Below, one piece after another: positions 6,245 to 64,000 of a stretch of 64,000 nucleotides of DNA. The notes under the pieces are model-generated. The model did not search any database and was not told the DNA's origin. It was given only the letters and a program-made list of their open reading frames with translations. Source of the DNA: Micromonospora yangpuensis (GTDB taxonomy: Bacteria > Actinomycetota > Actinomycetes > Mycobacteriales > Micromonosporaceae). The first letter of the stretch is position 1, and every line of letters begins with the position of its first letter. Location of the stretch: assembly GCF_900091615.1 (NCBI RefSeq), contig NZ_FMIA01000002.1:3658001-3722000 (forward strand), given 5' to 3'. The translations under genes and the position numbers were made by a program.

Positions 6245-9028
6245 TCAGGTCGCGGCGTGGTAGGCGAGCACCCCTCGGTTGACGGTGGCGATCGCCTGCC
6301 GGGCGGTGGCCCGCAGCTCGGTCGAGGCCCCACCGGAGTCGGCGAGCTGACCCAGCAGGTCGACGACCTGCCGGGCCCACCGGACGAAGTCACCGGCGGG
6401 CATCTCACCGTCGATCTCGTGGCCGCTGGCCAGCACCTTCGCCAGCGTCTCGCCACGGGCCCACCGGTAGATCGGCCAGGCGAAGCCGAGATCCGGCTCG
6501 CGGGTGACGGTCAACCCCCGGGCGGCCTCGTCGGACTCGATGCCGCTCCACAGCTTCAGCGTCTCCTCCACCGCCTCGGCCACCCCGCCCCGGGGCAGCG
6601 AGGCGCGTTCGTCGACGTCCCGGCGTGCCTCGAAGACGATCACCGAGACGGCCGCGGCCAGCTCCGCCGGGGCCAGACCGTCCCAGACGCCACCGCGCAG
6701 ACACTCGGCGACCAGCAGGTCCGCCTCGGTCCAGATCCGGCTCAGCATCCGCCCGGCGGCGGTGACCTCACCGTCGGCGGTGAGGTAGCCCCGGGCGGTC
6801 AGCAACGCCACGATCCGGTCGAAGGTTCGGGCCAGCGAGCCGGTCCGGCCGGAGACCCGTTGCCGCAGCTCGTCGGTGTCACGCTCCAGGCGGCGACGCC
6901 GCTCCGCCCAGCGGGCGTGCTCCTCCCGGTCCGGGCAGGCGTGGCAGGGGTGCCGGCGCAGCTCGGCCCGCAGCTGGGTGAGCCGGTCGTCCTCGCCGTT
7001 GCCGCGTCCCCGGGCCCCCCGCCGGCTGCGCCGGTCCAGACCGGTGCCGCTGACCTGCGCGGCGAGGTCCCGGCGGGCGGCCGGCGACCGGTGGTTGAAG
7101 TGCTTGGGCACCCGGATGCGGGTGAGCACCTCGGCCGGGGTGGTGAAGTCACCGGGGCTGACCCGGCCGGCCCAGCGGTCCTGGGTCAACACCAGCGGGC
7201 GCGGCTCACCGAACCCGCCGGTGGCCGGATCGAGCACCACCGCCAACCCGGCCCGGCGGCCGGCCGGCACCCGGATCACGTCGCCGACCCGCAGCCGTTC
7301 CAGGGCGGCCACGGCGGCCGCCCGGCGCTGGCTCTGCCCCTGCCGGGCGATGGACCGCTCCCGTTCGCCGATGGCCACCCGCAGGGCGAAGTACTCGTCG
7401 AAGTCACCGTGGTGGCACTCGGCCTCCACGCCGTACGCCTCGATGGTCTCGGTGTTGCGCTGCACCTGCCGGGCCAGGCCGACCACCGACCGGTCGGCCT
7501 GGAACTGGGCGAACGAGGACTCCAGCAGCTCCCGTGCCGGCGCGGTGCCGACCGTACCGACCAGGTTGACCGCCATGTTGTACGACGGCCGGAAGCTGGA
7601 CCGCAGCGGGTAGGTGCGGGTGGAGGCCAATCCGGCCACGTGCCGGGGATCGGTCTCCGGTGACCAGACCACCACGGCGTGGCCCTCGACGTCGATGCCC
7701 CGCCGCCCGGCCCGGCCGGTGAGCTGGGTGTACTCCCCCGGGGTCAGGTCGACGTGCGCCTCGCCGTTGTACTTGACCAGCCGTTCCAGGACCACACAGC
7801 GGGCCGGCATGTTGATCCCCAGCGCCAGGGTCTCGGTGGCGAAGACCGCCTTGACCAGGCCCCGGACGAACAGCTCCTCGACGACCTCCTTGAAGACCGG
7901 CAGCATGCCGGCGTGGTGGGCGGCCAGGCCGCGCTCCAGGCCGTCGAGCCACTCCCAGTAACCGAGCACCGTCAGGTCCTCGCCGGGGATCGCGGTGACC
8001 CGCGACTCCACCACCCGGCGGATCTCCGCCCGCTCCTCCGGCGAGGTCAGTCGCAGCCCGGCGGCGAGGCACTGCTGGACGGCGGCGGCGCAGCCGGCCC
8101 GGCTGAAAATGAACAGGATCGCCGGCAGCAGGCCCTCCCGGTCCAGCCGGTCGACGATGTCGGGACGCAACGGCCCCCGCCACCGGGGACCCCGACGGCC
8201 CCACCCGCCGCCGCGGGTGTCGCTGACCTCCAGCCGGCGCAGCGTGTCCCGGGTGTAGCGCAGCAACTCGGGGTGGACGTCGTGCTTGCGGGCGGCGTCG
8301 GCGTCGTGGAACAGGTCGAACATCCGCTTGCCGACCAGCATGTGCTGCCACAGCGGCACCGGACGGTGCTCGCTGACCACCACCGCGGTCTCGCCGCGCA
8401 CGGTGACCAGCCAGTCGGCGAACTCCTCGGCGTTGGAGACGGTGGCCGACAGGGAGACCAGGGTGACCGAGGCCGGCAGGTGGATGATCACCTCTTCCCA
8501 CACCCCGCCCCGGAACCGGTCGGCCAGGTAGTGCACCTCGTCCATCACCACGTAGGCCAGGCCGTCGAGGGTGGCCGAACCGGCGTAGAGCATGTTGCGC
8601 AGCACCTCGGTGGTCATCACCACCACCGGCGCGTCGCCGTTGATCGCGTTGTCGCCGGTGAGCAGCCCGACCTGCTCGGTGCCGTAGCGCTCCACCAGGT
8701 CGTGGTACTTCTGGTTGGACAGCGCCTTGATCGGGGTGGTGTAGAAGCACTTGCGCCGCGCCGGTGCCGGGCCGTCGGCGACCGCCGGGCCCGCAGGGGC
8801 ACCCCGCAACGCCAGATGTACGGCGAACTCGCCGACCACCGTCTTGCCCGCGCCGGTGGGGGCACAGACCAGGACCCCGCTGCCCTTCTCCAGGGCCTGG
8901 CACGCCTCGCGCTGGAAGTCGTCGAGGTCGAACCCCACCCCGAGGGCGAACTCGTCAAGCGCCGGGAACTCGGAGGCCTGCGCGGCCCGGCGGCGCGCCG
9001 CGGCGTAGCGCTCGGCGGGACTCGACAT
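6245..9028 (-). CDS. helY: DEAD/DEAH-box helicase, Ski2/Mtr4-like (HelY)
   Basis: 927 residues. Motif I APTGAGKTVVGEF (near residue 59), motif II DEVHYLADR (near 161), motif III LSATVSNAEEFADWL, the HHAGMLP loop and motif VI QLTGRAGRRGID give a superfamily 2 helicase of the Ski2 class. The C-terminal part has the DSHCT-type helical domain. A cysteine pair in RRHPCHACPDREEHARWAE is a feature of the actinobacterial HelY group. The likely role is RNA unwinding in turnover or ribosome-associated processes. The ATG at 9028 has TAATCT 7 bases upstream, so a leaderless start is likely, and it matches the usual N-terminus (SSPAERYAAARRR). Confidence 0.9.
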   Translation of the reverse strand: MSSPAERYAAARRRAAQASEFPALDEFALGVGFDLDDFQREACQALEKGSGVLVCAPTGAGKTVVGEFAVHLALRGAPAGPAVADGPAPARRKCFYTTPIKALSNQKYHDLVERYGTEQVGLLTGDNAINGDAPVVVMTTEVLRNMLYAGSATLDGLAYVVMDEVHYLADRFRGGVWEEVIIHLPASVTLVSLSATVSNAEEFADWLVTVRGETAVVVSEHRPVPLWQHMLVGKRMFDLFHDADAARKHDVHPELLRYTRDTLRRLEVSDTRGGGWGRRGPRWRGPLRPDIVDRLDREGLLPAILFIFSRAGCAAAVQQCLAAGLRLTSPEERAEIRRVVESRVTAIPGEDLTVLGYWEWLDGLERGLAAHHAGMLPVFKEVVEELFVRGLVKAVFATETLALGINMPARCVVLERLVKYNGEAHVDLTPGEYTQLTGRAGRRGIDVEGHAVVVWSPETDPRHVAGLASTRTYPLRSSFRPSYNMAVNLVGTVGTAPARELLESSFAQFQADRSVVGLARQVQRNTETIEAYGVEAECHHGDFDEYFALRVAIGERERSIARQGQSQRRAAAVAALERLRVGDVIRVPAGRRAGLAVVLDPATGGFGEPRPLVLTQDRWAGRVSPGDFTTPAEVLTRIRVPKHFNHRSPAARRDLAAQVSGTGLDRRSRRGARGRGNGEDDRLTQLRAELRRHPCHACPDREEHARWAERRRRLERDTDELRQRVSGRTGSLARTFDRIVALLTARGYLTADGEVTAAGRMLSRIWTEADLLVAECLRGGVWDGLAPAELAAAVSVIVFEARRDVDERASLPRGGVAEAVEETLKLWSGIESDEAARGLTVTREPDLGFAWPIYRWARGETLAKVLASGHEIDGEMPAGDFVRWARQVVDLLGQLADSGGASTELRATARQAIATVNRGVLAYHAAT

Positions 9029-58242: not shown

Positions 58243-60795
58243 TCACCGGGGATGGGTCGAGACGCCGGCCCGATGGGTACCGGTCCCGGCGTTGACCTCG
58301 ACCTGCAGCGCGCCGTCGCGGGCGTCGACGACCACCCGCTGCCCCGGTGACATCGCGCCTTCGAGCAGCATCCGGGACAGCCGGTTGTCCAACTCGCGTT
58401 GGATCACCCGACGCAGCGGCCGGGCGCCGAACTCCGGCTGGTAGCCGTGCTCGGCCAGCCAGTCCACCCCGGCGGTGGTGACCTCGATGGTGATGTCCTG
58501 GGCGTGCAGCCGACGCCGGGTCTCCTCCAGCAGCAGCCCGGTGATCTGGCGCAGCTGCTCGGCCTCCAGCCGCCGGAAGATGATCACCTCGTCGACGCGG
58601 TTGAGGAACTCCGGCCGGAAGTTCTCCTGCAGCCGGCGCATCAGCCGCTCGCGCAGCTCGTCGGACTCCTGGCTGCTGCCCGGCTCGCCGGCGCCGAACC
58701 CGACCGGCCGCTGGCTGCCGGTGATCAGCTCCGAACCCAGGTTGCTCGTCATGATCAGTACGGTGTTCTTGAAGTTCACCGTACGGCCCTGGCTGTCGGT
58801 GAGCCGGCCGTCGTCGAGCACCTGGAGCAGGATGTTGAACACGTCCGGGTGGGCCTTCTCGATCTCGTCGAGCAGCACCACCGCGTACGGGCGACGGCGC
58901 ACCGCCTCGGTGAGCTGCCCGGCCTCCTCGTACCCGACGTAGCCGGGTGGGGCGCCGACCAGCCGGCTGATGGTGTGCCGTTCCTGGAACTCGCTCATGT
59001 CCACCCGGACCATCCGGTCGGCCTCACCGAAGAGCGCCTCGGCCAGGGCCCGCGCCAACTCGGTCTTGCCCACGCCGGTCGGGCCGAGGAAGAGGAAGCT
59101 GCCCATCGGCCGGTTCGGGTCGGCCAGCCCGGCCCGCGAGCGGCGGACCGCCTCGGCGACCGCGCCGACGGCGTCGTCCTGACCGACCACCTTCTCGTGC
59201 AGCTGCCCCTCCAGTCGCAGCAGCCGGTCCCGTTCCTCCTCGGTGAGCTGGGCGACCGGGATTCCGGTGGCCCGGGAGACCACCTCGGCGATCTCCGCCG
59301 GGCCCACCTGCGGCACCTGCGGGGAGTCCCCCTCGCCCCGGGCCCGCCGGATCCGCTCCTCAACCTCGGCCAGCCGGTCACGCAGTGTCGACGCGCGCTC
59401 GTACTGCTCGTCGGCGACTGCCTGTTCCTTCTCCCGGCGTACCTCGTCGAGTTGTTGTTCCAGCTCCCGCACGTCCGAGGCGGGGGTCCGGGTGCGCAGC
59501 CGGACCCGGGCCCCGGTCTGGTCGATCAGGTCGATGGCCTTGTCCGGCAGGAAGCGGTCGGTGACGTACCGGTCGGCGAGTTCGGCCGCGGCGACCAGCG
59601 CCTCGTCGGTGAAGCGGACCTGGTGGTGGGCCTCGTAGCGGTCGCGCAGGCCACGCAGGATCGCCACCGTGTCGTCGACGCCGGGCTCGGGCACCAGCAC
59701 CGGCTGGAACCGGCGGGCCAGCGCGGCGTCCTTCTCGATGGTGCGGCGGTACTCGTCAAGCGTGGTCGCGCCGATCACCCGCAGCTCGCCCCGGGCCAGC
59801 GCCGGTTTGAGCATGTTGGAGGCGTCCATCCCGCCCTCGCTGCCGGCACCGCCCGCGCCGACCAGGGTGTGGATCTCGTCCAGGAAGATGATCAGCTCCT
59901 CCCGGTGGGCGCGGATCTCGTCGATCACCTTCTTGAGGCGTTCCTCGAAGTCACCCCGGTACCGGGTGCCGGCGACCAGGCCGGCCAGGTCCAGTTGGAT
60001 CACCCGCTTGCCGAGCAGGGTCTGCGGCACGTCGCCGTCGCAGATCCGCTCGGCCAGCCCCTCCACGATCGCGGTCTTGCCGACCCCGGCCTCGCCGATC
60101 AGCACCGGGTTGTTCTTGGTCCGCCGGGACAGGATCTCCACGGCCTGTTCGATCTCGTCGGCGCGCCCGATCACCGGGTCGATCTGGTCGTTGCGGGCCA
60201 GGTCGGTGAGGTCCTGACCGTACTGGTCGAGGGTGGGGGTCCCGCGGTCCGGTTTCGGGCCGGGCATCGGCCCACGTTCGGCGTTGGCCGCCTGCAACGA
60301 CTCGGGTTGGATCCGCCCGGCCGACAGCATCCGCCCGGCCGGTGACTCCGGGTTGAGCGGCAGGGCCATCAGAATGTGCTCCGGGCCGATGTAGTTCGCG
60401 CCCATCGCCCGGGAGAGCTGGTGGGCGTCGAGCAACGCCCGCTTCGCCGCCGGGGTGAGCGACAGGTTCGGCGGCACCTCGCCCGCCGGTGCGCCGTCCG
60501 CGCGCCCACCGAGGGCGTTGACCAGGGCGTCCGGGTCGGCCCCGGCCCGCCGGACCAGGTCCCGCAGGGGCTCGCGTTGCAGCGCCGCCCAGAGCAGGTG
60601 GTCGGTGTCCAGGTCGGTGCTCTGCCGCTGGGCGGCCCGGCGCGCCGCGTCGGCCAGCAGTTCCCGGGCGTCGGCGGTCATCAGCCGGGTGATGTCGACC
60701 CGGTGCGCCGGCCGGCGCCCGCCCTCACCCCGGCCGAAGTACCGGGCCAGGAACTCGTCCCACGGATCGGCGCCGAAGTCATCGGGTCCCAACAT
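58243..60795 (-). CDS. Clp ATPase, ClpC-like (HSP100 class 1)
   Basis: 850 residues. N-terminal repeat domain about 35-170 ([40 protein letters not shown]), first AAA module with Walker [17 protein letters not shown] near 235 and second with [16 protein letters not shown] near 572. The middle has only a short UVR-like segment ([20 protein letters not shown]), so it is closer to ClpC/ClpE than ClpB. An Asp/Phe/Arg-rich extension ([20 protein letters not shown]) precedes the N domain; together with the lack of the long M domain it marks this as a paralogue of ClpC1. It may act as a disaggregase or unfoldase for ClpP or on its own. GGAGG at 6 bases. Confidence 0.93.
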
Positions 60796-60882: not shown

Positions 60883-61263
60883 ATGACCGAGACACCGTTG
60901 CTGATCGTGGACGCCGCCAACGTGGTGGGTTCACGCCCCGACGGGTGGTGGCGGGACCGGGCCGGGGCCACCGCCCGGCTCCGCGACGCGTTGGCCCCGC
61001 TGGCCGAGCGGGGCCGCCCACCCGAGCTGGCACCACCGGCCGAGGTGGTGCTGGTGGTGGAGGGCGCGGCCCGGGGTGTGCCGGGCCGCGCGGAGGTCCG
61101 GGTGGTGGCCGCCGAGGCCTCGGGGGACGACGCCGTGGTGGCGCTGGTCGACGCCGCCGCGGGACGTCGCCGGCTGGTCGTCACCGCCGACCGTGAGTTA
61201 CGGCAGCGGGTCCGGGCCCTGGGTGCCGAGGTGTACGGGCCCCGCTGGCTGCGCGGCGACTGA
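60883..61263 (+). CDS. NYN/PIN-like RNase domain protein
   Basis: 126 residues. LLIVDAANVVGSRPDGWWRD gives the first acidic residues and RRLVVTADRELRQRVRALGA the later Asp pair of the NYN nuclease fold, related to PIN toxins and to RNA-processing enzymes. A stand-alone single domain. A CAGGCT box lies 6 bases before the ATG. It stands directly upstream, on the same strand, of the three-gene FtsK-type unit. Confidence 0.82.
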   Translation: MTETPLLIVDAANVVGSRPDGWWRDRAGATARLRDALAPLAERGRPPELAPPAEVVLVVEGAARGVPGRAEVRVVAAEASGDDAVVALVDAAAGRRRLVVTADRELRQRVRALGAEVYGPRWLRGD

Positions 61264-61431
61264 GCGTGGGCCGCTGCGGTGCGATGCGCGGTAGACGGGA
61301 CTGGCGCGAACGGGACTCCCGGGCCGGCCAGCCAACCGGACACGCGGGCAGGAACACCGACAGGGCGGATGTTCTCTCACCGACCGGGATAGGCTGTAAT
61401 GGAGGCCTCCCCGCCCCCAGGAGGTTCCACA

Positions 61432-61692
61432 GTGGCGAGCGTCGCCGAGCTGAAGGCAGCCATCGATGTCGCCCTCCAACAGATCGGCGACGGCCAGACC
61501 GCCGTGCAGGCGGCCGGCGAGAAGCTGGCCGAGGCGCAGCAGACCCTGGCCGGCGCGCTGGAGGGCAGTGGGCACGAGACAGTGGAGGCCGCGCAGGCCT
61601 CGTTGACGCAGGCCAGCCAGGAGTTGGAGGAGTGCCTCGCCGCCACCCTCGTCGCGGTGGAGCAGGCTCAGCTCTACGTAGCGACGCTCTGA
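61432..61692 (+). CDS. 86-residue helical protein, first gene of an FtsK-type unit
   Basis: Almost entirely alpha-helical: two helices (SVAELKAAIDVALQQIGDGQ to LAGALE; then HETVEAAQASLTQASQELEE, CLAATLVAVEQAQLYVATL) joined by a GSG turn. Length and hairpin shape recall WXG100/ESX secreted proteins, but the central Trp-x-Gly is absent and there is no C-terminal Tyr-x3-Asp/Glu export motif. AGGAGG precedes the GTG at 61432. A TAGGCT box at 61390-61395 probably drives the operon. The next gene starts 10 bases later. Confidence 0.7.
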   Translation: MASVAELKAAIDVALQQIGDGQTAVQAAGEKLAEAQQTLAGALEGSGHETVEAAQASLTQASQELEECLAATLVAVEQAQLYVATL

Positions 61693-61702
61693 GAGGCGGG
61701 TC

Positions 61703-62803
61703 GTGTCCATCGTCGAGGACATCGGCGCGCAGGTGCGGGCCGCCGCCGAGGACCTGCCGCTCGGCCTGCTGGCGCAGGCCCTGGAGAAGTTCGGGCAGGC
61801 CGCCGAGCGGCTGCGCTGGGTGCGGCAGGAGTCGGCGAACCCGATGGGGGTGCCGGAGCTCTCCGCGGCCACCGAGCACGCCGAGACCGCCGGATACGCG
61901 CTGCGGGTGGCCCAGGAGCAGTTGGCGGCGTACCTGACCACGCTGGGCCTGACCGCCGACGGCGCGCCGGCGCCGCGCCCGCAGCAGCGTCAACCGAAGC
62001 ACGACCAGCCCCGCGACGATGCGCCCCCGGCCGCCGGCGAGGGCCCGCAGCAGGCCGCCGACCCGACGGTGCGCCGCTGGTGGGCGGTGCGGGTGACCGA
62101 GCTGACCGGCGGCACCACCGCGCCGACCGGTGAGCCGGACGCGCAGATCGGCGACGCCCGGGAGCTGCTGCGCCGGGTGACCGGCGGGGTCCGCTCCGGC
62201 GACCGCGACCGGGTACGCGCCGAGCTGTGCCGCGCCCACGCCGACGTCGGTCTCGGCCTGGCCGCGCTGGCCCCGCCCCTGCTGCGCGAGCTGGCCGGGG
62301 AGCTGCTCGGCCACCCGCCCCGTGCCGAGGACCTGCCCCGGCTACGCAGCCAGCTCGACGGCCGGGTCCGGGACCTGCTGCCCAACCTGCCCCCGCCGGT
62401 GCTGGAGACCCTGCTCAGCCGGGTCTGCCGGATGCCGCCGCCCCGAGGCGGTGAGCAGCCGCACGCCGCCGACTCGGCGGTGACCTCCGGGGTGCTGGCC
62501 GGGGTCCTGCTGGACCGGCTCGGCCGGGACCTGCCACCGGAGTCCTCCGGTTCCCCGCAGCGCCCCGGGGCCGCCGACGGGTCCACCCCGGACGGGCAGC
62601 GGTCCACCCGGGACGGCGGTGCGCCACCGCCACGCGACCCTCGACCCCGACCGGGTACCGGCTCCGGCGGGTCCACCCCGCGCAGGACCACCGGCCCGAC
62701 CCCACGGACCGGCCCCGGCGGACCGGCCGGCCCGGTCCCGCGCGGCGGCACCGCGCCCCGGCGCGGCGACGGCCCGGCCCGTCCCGGGAGAGCCGATGGC
62801 TGA
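61703..62803 (+). CDS. 366-residue helical protein with Pro-rich tail, second gene of the unit
   Basis: N-terminal helical hairpin (LGLLAQALEKFGQAAERLRW, HAETAGYALRVAQEQLAAYL) similar in shape to the preceding 86-residue protein, a Pro/Gln/Asp-rich linker (about 85-120), a second helical domain (about 120-270, LRRVTGGVRSGDRDRVRAEL, LPNLPPPVLETLLSRVCRMP) and a disordered Pro/Gly/Arg-rich C-terminal 90 residues. No enzyme motif found. Its stop overlaps the start of the ATPase gene by 8 bases. Probably a structural or substrate-binding partner of the ATPase. Confidence 0.7.
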   Translation: MSIVEDIGAQVRAAAEDLPLGLLAQALEKFGQAAERLRWVRQESANPMGVPELSAATEHAETAGYALRVAQEQLAAYLTTLGLTADGAPAPRPQQRQPKHDQPRDDAPPAAGEGPQQAADPTVRRWWAVRVTELTGGTTAPTGEPDAQIGDARELLRRVTGGVRSGDRDRVRAELCRAHADVGLGLAALAPPLLRELAGELLGHPPRAEDLPRLRSQLDGRVRDLLPNLPPPVLETLLSRVCRMPPPRGGEQPHAADSAVTSGVLAGVLLDRLGRDLPPESSGSPQRPGAADGSTPDGQRSTRDGGAPPPRDPRPRPGTGSGGSTPRRTTGPTPRTGPGGPAGPVPRGGTAPRRGDGPARPGRADG

Positions 62804-64000
62804 CCGTCGCGCCCAACTGGTGACCCGGGTGCGCGGCATGCTCTCCGACGCGCTGGGCGCCACCCGGGCCCGGCTGGCCGCCGCCGACGCCGAGCTGACC
62901 GCCGGCCAGCAACGGCTGACCAAGGTACGCCGGGCCGCCGACGCCGTACCCGAACGGGTAGGTGCCGAGCGGGACCGGCGACTGGCCCAACTCGACACCG
63001 GGCAGCAGGCCCGGATCGCCGACCTGGCCGAGCGGGCCGCCGAGGCCGCCCGGCGGGAGGCCCCCGGCGCGGCCTCGGCGGACTGGTCGGGGTGGCAGCC
63101 GACACCGAGCGGGCCGGCCGAGCCCCCGGGTGCGGTACGCGTCGGCACGCTGCGGATCCCCGGCACGGTGCCGGTGCCCGCGCTGGTGCCGCTGCTGGAC
63201 GCCGGACACGTGCACCTCTCCGGCGCCGACCTGGCCGGTGACGAGGCGGTGGTGCCGGCGCTGCTGCTACGCAGCCTCGGCCGCACCGACCCCGGGGCGG
63301 TCCGGCTGATCGGGTACGACCCCGAGCACCTCGGCGGCGGGCTGGCCGGGTTCGCCCCGCTGACCGCCGCCGGGCTGCTGACCTTCGTCGGGCCCGGTGG
63401 GCTCGGGCGGCTCCTGGACGACCTGGTCGAACAGATCCGCCGGATCAACGAGACGGTGCTGGCCGGCGAGTACGGATCGCTGCGGGAGCTGGCCGCGGCG
63501 ACCGGCCGACGGCCGGAGCCGTGGCGGGTGGCGGTGCTGCTCGGCGGGGACGAGCTGAACCGCCACGAACGCGGCCAACTCGACCGGGTGGTGCGCACCG
63601 GCACGGCCTGCGGGGTGCATCTGGTGGTGCGCGGGGTGCCGCTGCCGGAGCACCCGACGGTGACCCGGATCGTGATCGGGCGCGACGGTGCGCGCATCGG
63701 CGGGCCGCCCGGACTGGCCGCCCGGCTGGACCCACCCCCGCCCGCTCCCCTGGTGACCGAGACCTGCCGGACGCTGGCCGCCACGGTCAACGCCGGCCCG
63801 GCCCCGGCGCCCTTCGCCGAGCTGCTGCCGCCGGTGGAGCAGATGTGGCAGGACGACTCCGCCACCGGGCTGACCGCCCCGATCGGGTCGGCGGCCAACG
63901 GCCGGCAGGTGCAGCTCACCCTCGGCGACTATCCGCCGCACGCGCTCATCGGCGGGCCGTCGGGCACCGGCAAGACCAACCTGATCTTCGCCTGGATCGG
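62796..64000 (+). CDS. FtsK/SpoIIIE-type ATPase, 3' end cut by window
   Basis: 401 residues visible. An N-terminal coiled coil (about 10-90, RQQRLTKVRR-like; ERDRRLAQLDTGQQARIADL) is followed at about 110-280 by a degenerate FtsK-like domain without Walker A (LRSLGRTDPGAVRLIGYDPE, LLTFVGPGGLGRLLDDLVEQ, VAVLLGGDELNRHERGQLDR). The second domain has an intact Walker A, HALIGGPSGTGKTNLIFAWI, at about 386-394, then the window ends. The double-domain plan resembles large FtsK/SpoIIIE proteins and EccC-type secretion ATPases. It could move DNA or protein. Confidence 0.85.
   Translation, partial: MADRRAQLVTRVRGMLSDALGATRARLAAADAELTAGQQRLTKVRRAADAVPERVGAERDRRLAQLDTGQQARIADLAERAAEAARREAPGAASADWSGWQPTPSGPAEPPGAVRVGTLRIPGTVPVPALVPLLDAGHVHLSGADLAGDEAVVPALLLRSLGRTDPGAVRLIGYDPEHLGGGLAGFAPLTAAGLLTFVGPGGLGRLLDDLVEQIRRINETVLAGEYGSLRELAAATGRRPEPWRVAVLLGGDELNRHERGQLDRVVRTGTACGVHLVVRGVPLPEHPTVTRIVIGRDGARIGGPPGLAARLDPPPPAPLVTETCRTLAATVNAGPAPAPFAELLPPVEQMWQDDSATGLTAPIGSAANGRQVQLTLGDYPPHALIGGPSGTGKTNLIFAWI

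Follow-up and report, generated by a model that had tools for sequence, protein, structure and literature searches.

Organization of the locus

We examined a gene cluster of Micromonospora yangpuensis which encodes two proteins with helical hairpins, an ATPase of the FtsK superfamily and a protein with C-terminal hydrophobic segments. The analysed window is a stretch of 64,000 nucleotides (G000:C2:3658001-3722000) within a genome of 6.5 Mb, and the coordinates given below are window positions. The cluster lies on the forward strand at the 3' end of the window, and it continues past the window end.

The operon is composed of four genes. The first (A86; 61432..61692) begins with a GTG start codon and encodes a helical hairpin protein of 86 residues. 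After a gap of 10 bases, the second (B366; 61703..62803) encodes 366 residues, with a hairpin related by homology to A86 at the N-terminus, then a conserved domain of helices at about residues 121-273 and a proline-rich tail. The ATPase gene (62796-65474, 892 residues) overlaps B366 by 8 bases, and the window ends at 64000 inside this gene. Its intact Walker A motif, GGPSGTGKT (63951..63977), was assigned to the middle ATPase domain from the sequence and alignment A8; the DEFQ Walker B motif is found just beyond the window. The fourth gene (D219; 65471-66130) overlaps the ATPase gene by 4 bases and lies outside the window; its product of 219 residues contains a coiled coil and three C-terminal hydrophobic segments (about residues 124-151, 153-185 and 197-219, Kyte-Doolittle). 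The first-pass annotation of this DNA had placed the first three genes and the upstream NYN-like gene correctly, including the 10-base gap and the 8-base overlap, and had described a three-gene unit, which D219 enlarges to four.

A -10-like promoter box, TAGGCT (61390..61395, forward strand), is located about 37 bases 5' of the A86 gene and is followed by the A86 ribosome-binding site AGGAGG (61419..61424, forward strand). Of 11 upstream regions aligned, 9 match the box, already proposed in the earlier annotation, as TAnnnT, and all 11 contain AGGAGG. A simple sigma-70 scan of L009 5100-10400 called no promoter. Since the TAnnnT box and AGGAGG separate the NYN-like gene from A86, the operon was read as A86-B366-ATPase-D219.

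The NYN-like open reading frame (60883-61263, forward strand) ends 168 bases ahead of the A86 gene. Its family assignment is uncertain (PIN_9 17.1 bits, Pfam cut-off 26.3). Its candidacy as a part of the system, as first annotated, was rejected, as a BLASTP match was obtained in only 15 of the 40 ATPase loci of our survey, which were taken from the matches listed, and as the 168 bases and the promoter-like box stand between it and A86. The other contig neighbours are a ClpC-type ATPase gene, a JmjC gene, which is convergent and downstream of D219, and a DUF2267 gene. The ClpC-type AAA+ gene (58243-60795, opposite strand, divergent from the NYN-like gene) adjoins the operon in many Micromonospora-like loci and may be a chance neighbour. 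When the sequence was followed past position 64,000, neither an ESX operon nor a chromosomal FtsK gene was found downstream; the contig genes past the window rule out a downstream ESX operon.

The ATPase is colinear with EccC

Analysis of the ATPase by a Pfam scan gave an FtsK_SpoIIIE match restricted to residues 356-542 (1.9e-19), and an EccCa match was obtained over residues 347-543 (2e-25; 89.6 bits, below the family cut-off of 509). Profile comparisons were scored against column-shuffled controls; the EccC profile consisted of two sequences (1340 columns) and the FtsK profile of one sequence, the chromosomal FtsK of the same genome. Three RecA-like domains were resolved in this way, namely an N domain (112-300), a middle domain and a C domain (682-850). 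Walker A is intact in the middle domain alone, the N and C domains being degenerate and devoid of this motif. The protein had been annotated as a double-domain ATPase whose first domain has lost Walker A; the loss was borne out, whereas the number of domains is three and the third has lost Walker A as well.

The N domain matched the middle domain with a score of 65.2 (maximum of 30 shuffles, 21.8). The middle domain matched EccC D1 at 155.9 (shuffle maximum 17.1), while the C domain matched EccC D2 at 49.1 (19.4) and the middle domain at 25.7 (18.1). When the whole profile of the ATPase family was compared, it was colinear with EccC columns 233-1057, with a score of 198.7 (maximum of 5 shuffles, 18.5). 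By colinearity, the domain order thus appears to be that of EccC DUF, D1 and D2, without the transmembrane region and D3. For EccC5, the DUF has been termed a degenerated ATPase domain (PMC11154593).

The kinship with EccC exceeded that with FtsK. The middle domain scored higher with EccC (160.9) than with the chromosomal FtsK (114.5), and the comparison of the C domain with chromosomal FtsK was at noise level (21.2 vs 20.1). The FtsK gamma winged-helix domain was absent from the Pfam scan, and no hydrophobic segment that could form an N-terminal transmembrane region was present. Identity with chromosomal FtsK was rejected, as the ATPase is EccC-colinear and its active domain is closer to EccC. 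By the Kyte-Doolittle method the ATPase contains no hydrophobic segment at all, and in this respect it is not the membrane-bound ATPase by which type VII secretion is recognized.

The family carries the motifs DFKEG and DEFQ and, in the C domain, H-x3-WW. In alignment A8 (20 sequences), D419, G423, D502, H813 and W817 are invariant, and F420, K421, E422, E503, F504, Q505 and W818 are conserved in at least 90% of the sequences. In a tree of ATPase cores, the family was placed apart from EccC D1-D3 and from FtsK; a number of branches in this tree are long, and support is moderate in places.

Kinship of the A86 and B366 hairpins

The A86 model obtained with AlphaFold2 (single sequence, no alignment) is a two-helix hairpin, with helices at 4-45 and 48-85 and a mean predicted local distance difference test (pLDDT) score of 91.8. 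In the B366 model, confidence is lower for the hairpin region and high for the helical domain (block pLDDT of 87-98 over most of 121-280, with one block at 78), and the tail is disordered (about 42-52 after 281). A search of the PDB for folds resembling the B366 model returned nothing significant.

The A86 profile matched the B366 N-terminus at 25.8 (maximum of 60 shuffles, 14.3) and the hairpins of the distant loci described below at 26.0 (maximum of 60 shuffles, 17.1). As a control, A86 scored 8.8 against the ATPase coiled coil. A WXG100 kinship of A86 by profile was considered and discarded, both comparisons being near noise, that with WXG100 sequences and that with two ESX-locus proteins without any NCBIfam match. 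Likewise, the Pfam WXG100 model gave 16.2 bits on A86, below its cut-off of 27.3. The turn glycine G45 is invariant across the 24 aligned A86 sequences and one of them, from L045, contains WDG; for these two reasons, A86 and WXG100 may still have a remote common origin. The two proteins had been likened to ESX substrates without the Trp-x-Gly motif. The predicted helical hairpin agrees with this description, but by profile A86 is nearer to a hairpin family of another kind than it is to WXG100, and L045 does carry the motif.

Conservation in Micromonosporaceae

At E≤1e-30, an orthologous or paralogous relative of the ATPase was detected in 105 of 121 Micromonosporaceae genomes, Micromonospora and Salinispora included. 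Among 396 genomes drawn from the phylum it was found in five, two of which belong to the genus Micromonospora; the two phylum-wide ATPase searches made on this draw gave 5 and 6 genomes. A86 was matched at E≤1e-6 in 96 of the 121 Micromonosporaceae genomes and, at E≤0.01, in 16 of the 396 phylum genomes, strongly in only two, both of the same genus.

The small proteins are conserved together with the ATPase. At least 93 of the 98 strong A86 matches (E about 1e-27 or better, 93 genomes) sit 697-1880 bases upstream of an ATPase gene on the same strand, a lower bound derived from the ATPase matches listed. Five strong matches, in G510, G471, G453, G412 and G422, have no ATPase on their contig among the matches listed. 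Concerning the weak A86 matches, at least 9 of 30 lie 678-824 bases downstream of an ATPase paralogue and one more lies upstream. In the 40 surveyed loci, BLASTP detected A86 in 32, B366 in 31 and D219 in 21; a counterpart of D219 is also present, by position, in paralogous loci.

The A86-B366-ATPase gene order recurs across the family and A86 is 94-99% identical in three other loci of the same genus, with a ratio of nonsynonymous to synonymous substitution rates (dN/dS) of 0.01-0.03; on these grounds the genes are more than chance open reading frames. In the same comparisons (L018-L020), dN/dS was 0.22-0.26 for the ATPase, 0.38-0.45 for B366 and 0.43-0.52 for D219. With the more distant L021, the values were 0.28 for A86, 0.27 for the ATPase, 0.50 for B366 and 0.74 for D219.

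Paralogues and other type VII loci of the same genome

The genome encodes further relatives of the ATPase, in L010 and L016. In alignment A8, Walker A, DFKEG and DEFQ are all lost from the L016 paralogue, which adjoins a locus judged by eye to be VirB4-like and peptidase-like. In other genera (L109 and L110), the L016-type locus contains the ATPase, a coiled-coil protein with a hydrophobic C-terminal half and an 86-residue hairpin protein. L016 (G000:C2 about 6119000-6129700) and L013 (G204) have in common, in two Micromonospora species, the VirB4-like and peptidase-like genes (named by eye), the third ATPase paralogue and folE/ftsH/hpt-like genes. In G074, a genome of the same order, a 1151-residue ATPase relative with a coiled-coil neighbour (L015:7903-11358) is found among small proteins of unknown function.

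The only matches of the A86 profile in the genome are the query and two copies in L058 (G000:C2:4868500-4888000). These A86-related hairpin proteins of 100 residues (7773-8075 and 13801-14103 of L058; 35.1 bits each) are encoded about 6 kb apart, and each copy is followed by a similar gene for 211-212 residues. An ATP-binding-type protein and an RloB-like gene (by eye) lie in between, and L058 may be a conflict island.

Canonical type VII genes are present elsewhere in the genome, with EccC and EccD in L059 and EccC, EccD and mycosin in L060. The early remark that no other type VII genes are seen is thus valid around the operon but not for the genome.

Distant relatives with Hsp70 genes and plasmid forms

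Starting from a relative in G310, 16 named distant loci were reached, in which the ATPase strand was scanned. Their hosts include Thermophilibacter, three Bifidobacterium, two Propionibacteriaceae, Buchananella, Bifidobacteriaceae, Lachnospiraceae, Ruminococcaceae, Blautia and others. One locus is labelled Saccharibacteria, on a contig that may be misbinned, and L071 and L072 are near-identical. In all 16 loci, two to four genes of the hairpin families directly follow the 3' end of the ATPase gene. Most of them encode about 85 residues; the first is longer in L070, L074 and L073 (frames of 204, 200 and 437 residues, respectively).

DnaK and GrpE are both encoded in 9 of the 16 loci and a J-like protein in 13. 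In the three loci without a J gene, the sequence breaks off at the start of the ATPase gene or close to it; a J-like gene without DnaK or GrpE is present in L069, L074, L075 and L077. For L063, Pfam matches above cut-off were obtained for HSP70 (2.3e-120), GrpE (3.6e-14), a zinc ribbon and TPR, and a DnaJ match (6e-5) was below cut-off. By hydropathy analysis, the L063 J-like protein and that of a Rhodococcus plasmid have hydrophobic segments; the L063 ATPase has one borderline segment.

The plasmid in question, from Rhodococcus pseudokoreensis, carries genes for Hsp70, a J-like TPR protein, GrpE, the ATPase, a 203-residue protein, an 86-residue hairpin protein, a 272-residue protein and a 134-residue protein. 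The 203-residue protein is a coiled coil with a C-terminal hydrophobic segment, and the hairpin protein scored 45.6 bits with profile A4. Matches to the C-terminal part of the 272-residue protein were obtained in one Streptomyces record, one Rhizobium record and four records from Escherichia. On the plasmids of Streptomyces and Rhizobium, no gene is annotated over the match, and a homologue of the gene for the 134-residue protein comes next (E 2e-13 and 1e-10, two-sequence comparison). This layout resembles that of exchangeable effector and immunity genes.

A remote relative of the ATPase is found on plasmid pSBC2-5 of Caballeronia sp. SBC2 (L114:5142-17491), where a WXG100 protein (30.8 bits, Pfam cut-off 27.3) is encoded. 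The same run contains genes for a Card1-like CARF nuclease, VWA proteins, a PP2C phosphatase, a kinase and a helicase-type protein, so that in this locus a WXG100 gene of Pseudomonadota stands next to signalling and nuclease genes.

Comparison with known systems

The system recalls type VII secretion (ESX; EccC/EssC with WXG100 proteins) by an EccC-like motor colinear over several domains and by small helical-hairpin partners encoded alongside, and it recalls PE/PPE by two adjacent hairpin genes, one of which is extended. It differs from type VII secretion in that the membrane part is a separate protein, the motor being without transmembrane region and D3, in that the hairpins are mostly without WxG and lack YxxxD/E, and in that no further core genes are seen alongside. 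The T7SSc-T7SSj types (Garrett et al. 2024, PMC11217815) likewise vary in the genes that surround an EssC/EccC-type ATPase and a hairpin protein. Their ATPases are membrane-bound, with WXG100 proteins and mostly TsxB, and DnaK, Hsp70 and DnaJ are absent from the main text of that paper. GAP1-N2 GTPase conflict systems (Kaur et al. 2020, PMC7159879) are similar in their linked HSP70, GrpE and DnaJ-domain or TPR protein near the membrane; they are centred on GTPases and GAP1, and the section concerned names neither an FtsK-type motor nor hairpin genes. SspH and mad8, two FtsK-type defence proteins, contain the same kind of ATPase domain (about 1e-18) with different partners. No description of an FtsK/EccC-like gene accompanied by Hsp70 and hairpin genes was found in the literature searched. 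We propose a new hairpin/EccC-like motor family, which on the best reading is distinct from the described types of type VII secretion system.

Proposed mechanism and alternative explanations

We lean towards the view that the operon encodes a membrane-tethered EccC-like motor acting on a pair of WXG100-like hairpin proteins, whose hairpin cargo it would move or remodel. Among the functions first suggested for the locus, a reduced secretion machine fits best with the EccC-like ATPase and with the hairpin genes encoded alongside it in most of the lineages sampled. Further support comes from the homology of A86 to the distant hairpins and to the B366 N-terminus, from the DnaK, GrpE and J-like genes of the distant loci, from the gene set of the Rhodococcus plasmid and from the WXG100 gene near the remote Caballeronia relative. 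A86 probably heterodimerizes with the hairpin at the N-terminus of B366, as their adjacency and homology suggest and as in Esx or PE/PPE pairs. B366 would then couple the hairpin dimer to the soluble ATPase, a contact supported by natural fusions, B366 and the ATPase sharing one reading frame in 2 of 31 loci (L024 and L029). The assembly would be anchored in the membrane by the hydrophobic segments of D219, which may itself form a passage. As in type VII secretion, ATP hydrolysis at the single intact middle domain would drive movement or remodelling of the hairpin cargo, which the DnaK-GrpE-J set of the sister lineage would deliver or keep unfolded. EccC D3 (ATPase3) is reported to be the docking site of the EsxB tail; since both D3 and YxxxD/E are missing here, a changed recognition step would fit.

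Several observations weigh against this reading. The A86 profile scored 15.4 against 27 WXG100 sequences, for a shuffle maximum of 15.2; WxG occurs in 1 of the 24 aligned A86 sequences (the WDG of L045, at the turn) and YxxxD/E in none of them. In the PDB fold search with the A86 model nothing was significant, and no WXG100 structure appeared among the 50 matches listed. In addition, A86 scored 18.6 against the D219 coiled coil (shuffle maximum 13.7), over 18 columns only; because of the coiled-coil controls, part of the hairpin signal may be due to composition, and it is the matches of about 80 columns that carry weight. Concerning the motor, the EccC transmembrane region and D3 are missing. 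Taken by itself, the N domain agrees with EccC D1 (57.1) and reaches only 21.8 with the EccC DUF, against 20.0 for noise, so that its correspondence to the DUF relies on the colinear order and not on its score. None of the genes EccB, EccD, EccE, mycosin, EssA, EssB, EsaA and EsaB/ubiquitin-like was seen beside the operon. A hairpin gene beside the ATPase, by which we delimit the proposed family, is found in the query and most loci, but the two further pairs of ATPase and transmembrane protein in the genome, L010 (44% identity) and L016, have none, and A86 was not found by BLASTP in 8 of the 40 family loci (L042, L044, L046, L051, L053, L055, L056 and L057). Six of these eight genomes have A86 beside another ATPase copy, and two (G422 and G412) have it on a separate contig. 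Finally, tree support between the Micromonosporaceae and the Hsp70-linked branches is moderate; the first L076 J-like protein, one of three J-proteins tested, has no hydrophobic segment; the start of the 272-residue plasmid protein is only weakly hairpin-like (13.8 bits to A3, about 0-4 to A1, A4 and A6); and the effector-like layout is present in one relative only.

The main rival, which we regard as unlikely, is a non-secreting, membrane-associated assembly machine with a housekeeping role, in which the ATPase would build, load or dissolve a hairpin scaffold or filament during cell division, hyphal growth or formation of the spore septum. The wide distribution of the ATPase and A86 in the family is consistent with such a role, and the rate at which A86 evolves is far below those of B366 and D219, as expected of a self-assembling subunit. 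The Hsp70 sets could equally serve assembly, and no effector-like gene was noticed beside the operon in a gene-by-gene reading of the 13 listed family loci other than L055. However, the EccC-type domain order and the effector/immunity-like pair of the plasmid point to translocation.

An anti-phage or conflict system, in which the motor would sense or pump invader DNA, is improbable. HSP70/GrpE/DnaJ sets do occur in the GTPase-centred conflict systems (Kaur et al. 2020, PMC7159879), the Caballeronia relative lies near a Card1-like CARF nuclease, a kinase and a PP2C phosphatase, and the FtsK-type domains of SspH and mad8 match relatives of the query at up to 3e-23. These last matches are nevertheless confined to the shared ATPase domain; no partner gene of the PADLOC Ssp/MADS systems is present in the operon, whose other proteins gave only 0.0015 or worse to ZorA, JetC, LmuB and ZorF. 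Moreover, the operon contains no nuclease, methylase or sensor, no phage match was obtained at 1e-20 and a single plasmid record was obtained for the query at 1e-30. The system is common across Micromonosporaceae and not patchy, and the defence function once envisaged for it in this family is unsupported.

A SpoIIIE/FtsK-type DNA translocase acting at septa with a small placement partner, like SmeA-SffA of Streptomyces (reportedly an FtsK/SpoIIIE-family protein with a small membrane partner, not known to include hairpin genes), is very doubtful, since the FtsK_SpoIIIE domain and the adjoining membrane-type partner would agree with it but the active domain is nearer to EccC, the gamma domain is absent from the Pfam scan and the hairpin genes are left unexplained, and DNA pumping, an early suggestion for this locus, is likewise unsupported.

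Returning to the membrane-tethered motor, a broader form of this explanation is a real possibility, which we hold with less assurance than the motor itself. The family would constitute a separate branch of type VII-like protein translocation, with a soluble EccC-like motor, GS-turn hairpins instead of WxG, a detachable membrane anchor and often a private Hsp70 handing over the cargo. Its members would occur in both Actinomycetota and Bacillota, including a plasmid form that has swappable effectors and a stripped-down core form in most Micromonosporaceae.

If this is true, type VII-like transport would be broader than described and its motor need not be built into the membrane. Hairpin cargo could do without WxG or YxxxD/E, and Hsp70 chaperones could be wired into the machine. 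As the Micromonosporaceae form is small, with four genes, and common in the family, the roles of the motor, the anchor and the hairpins would be open to deletion analysis.

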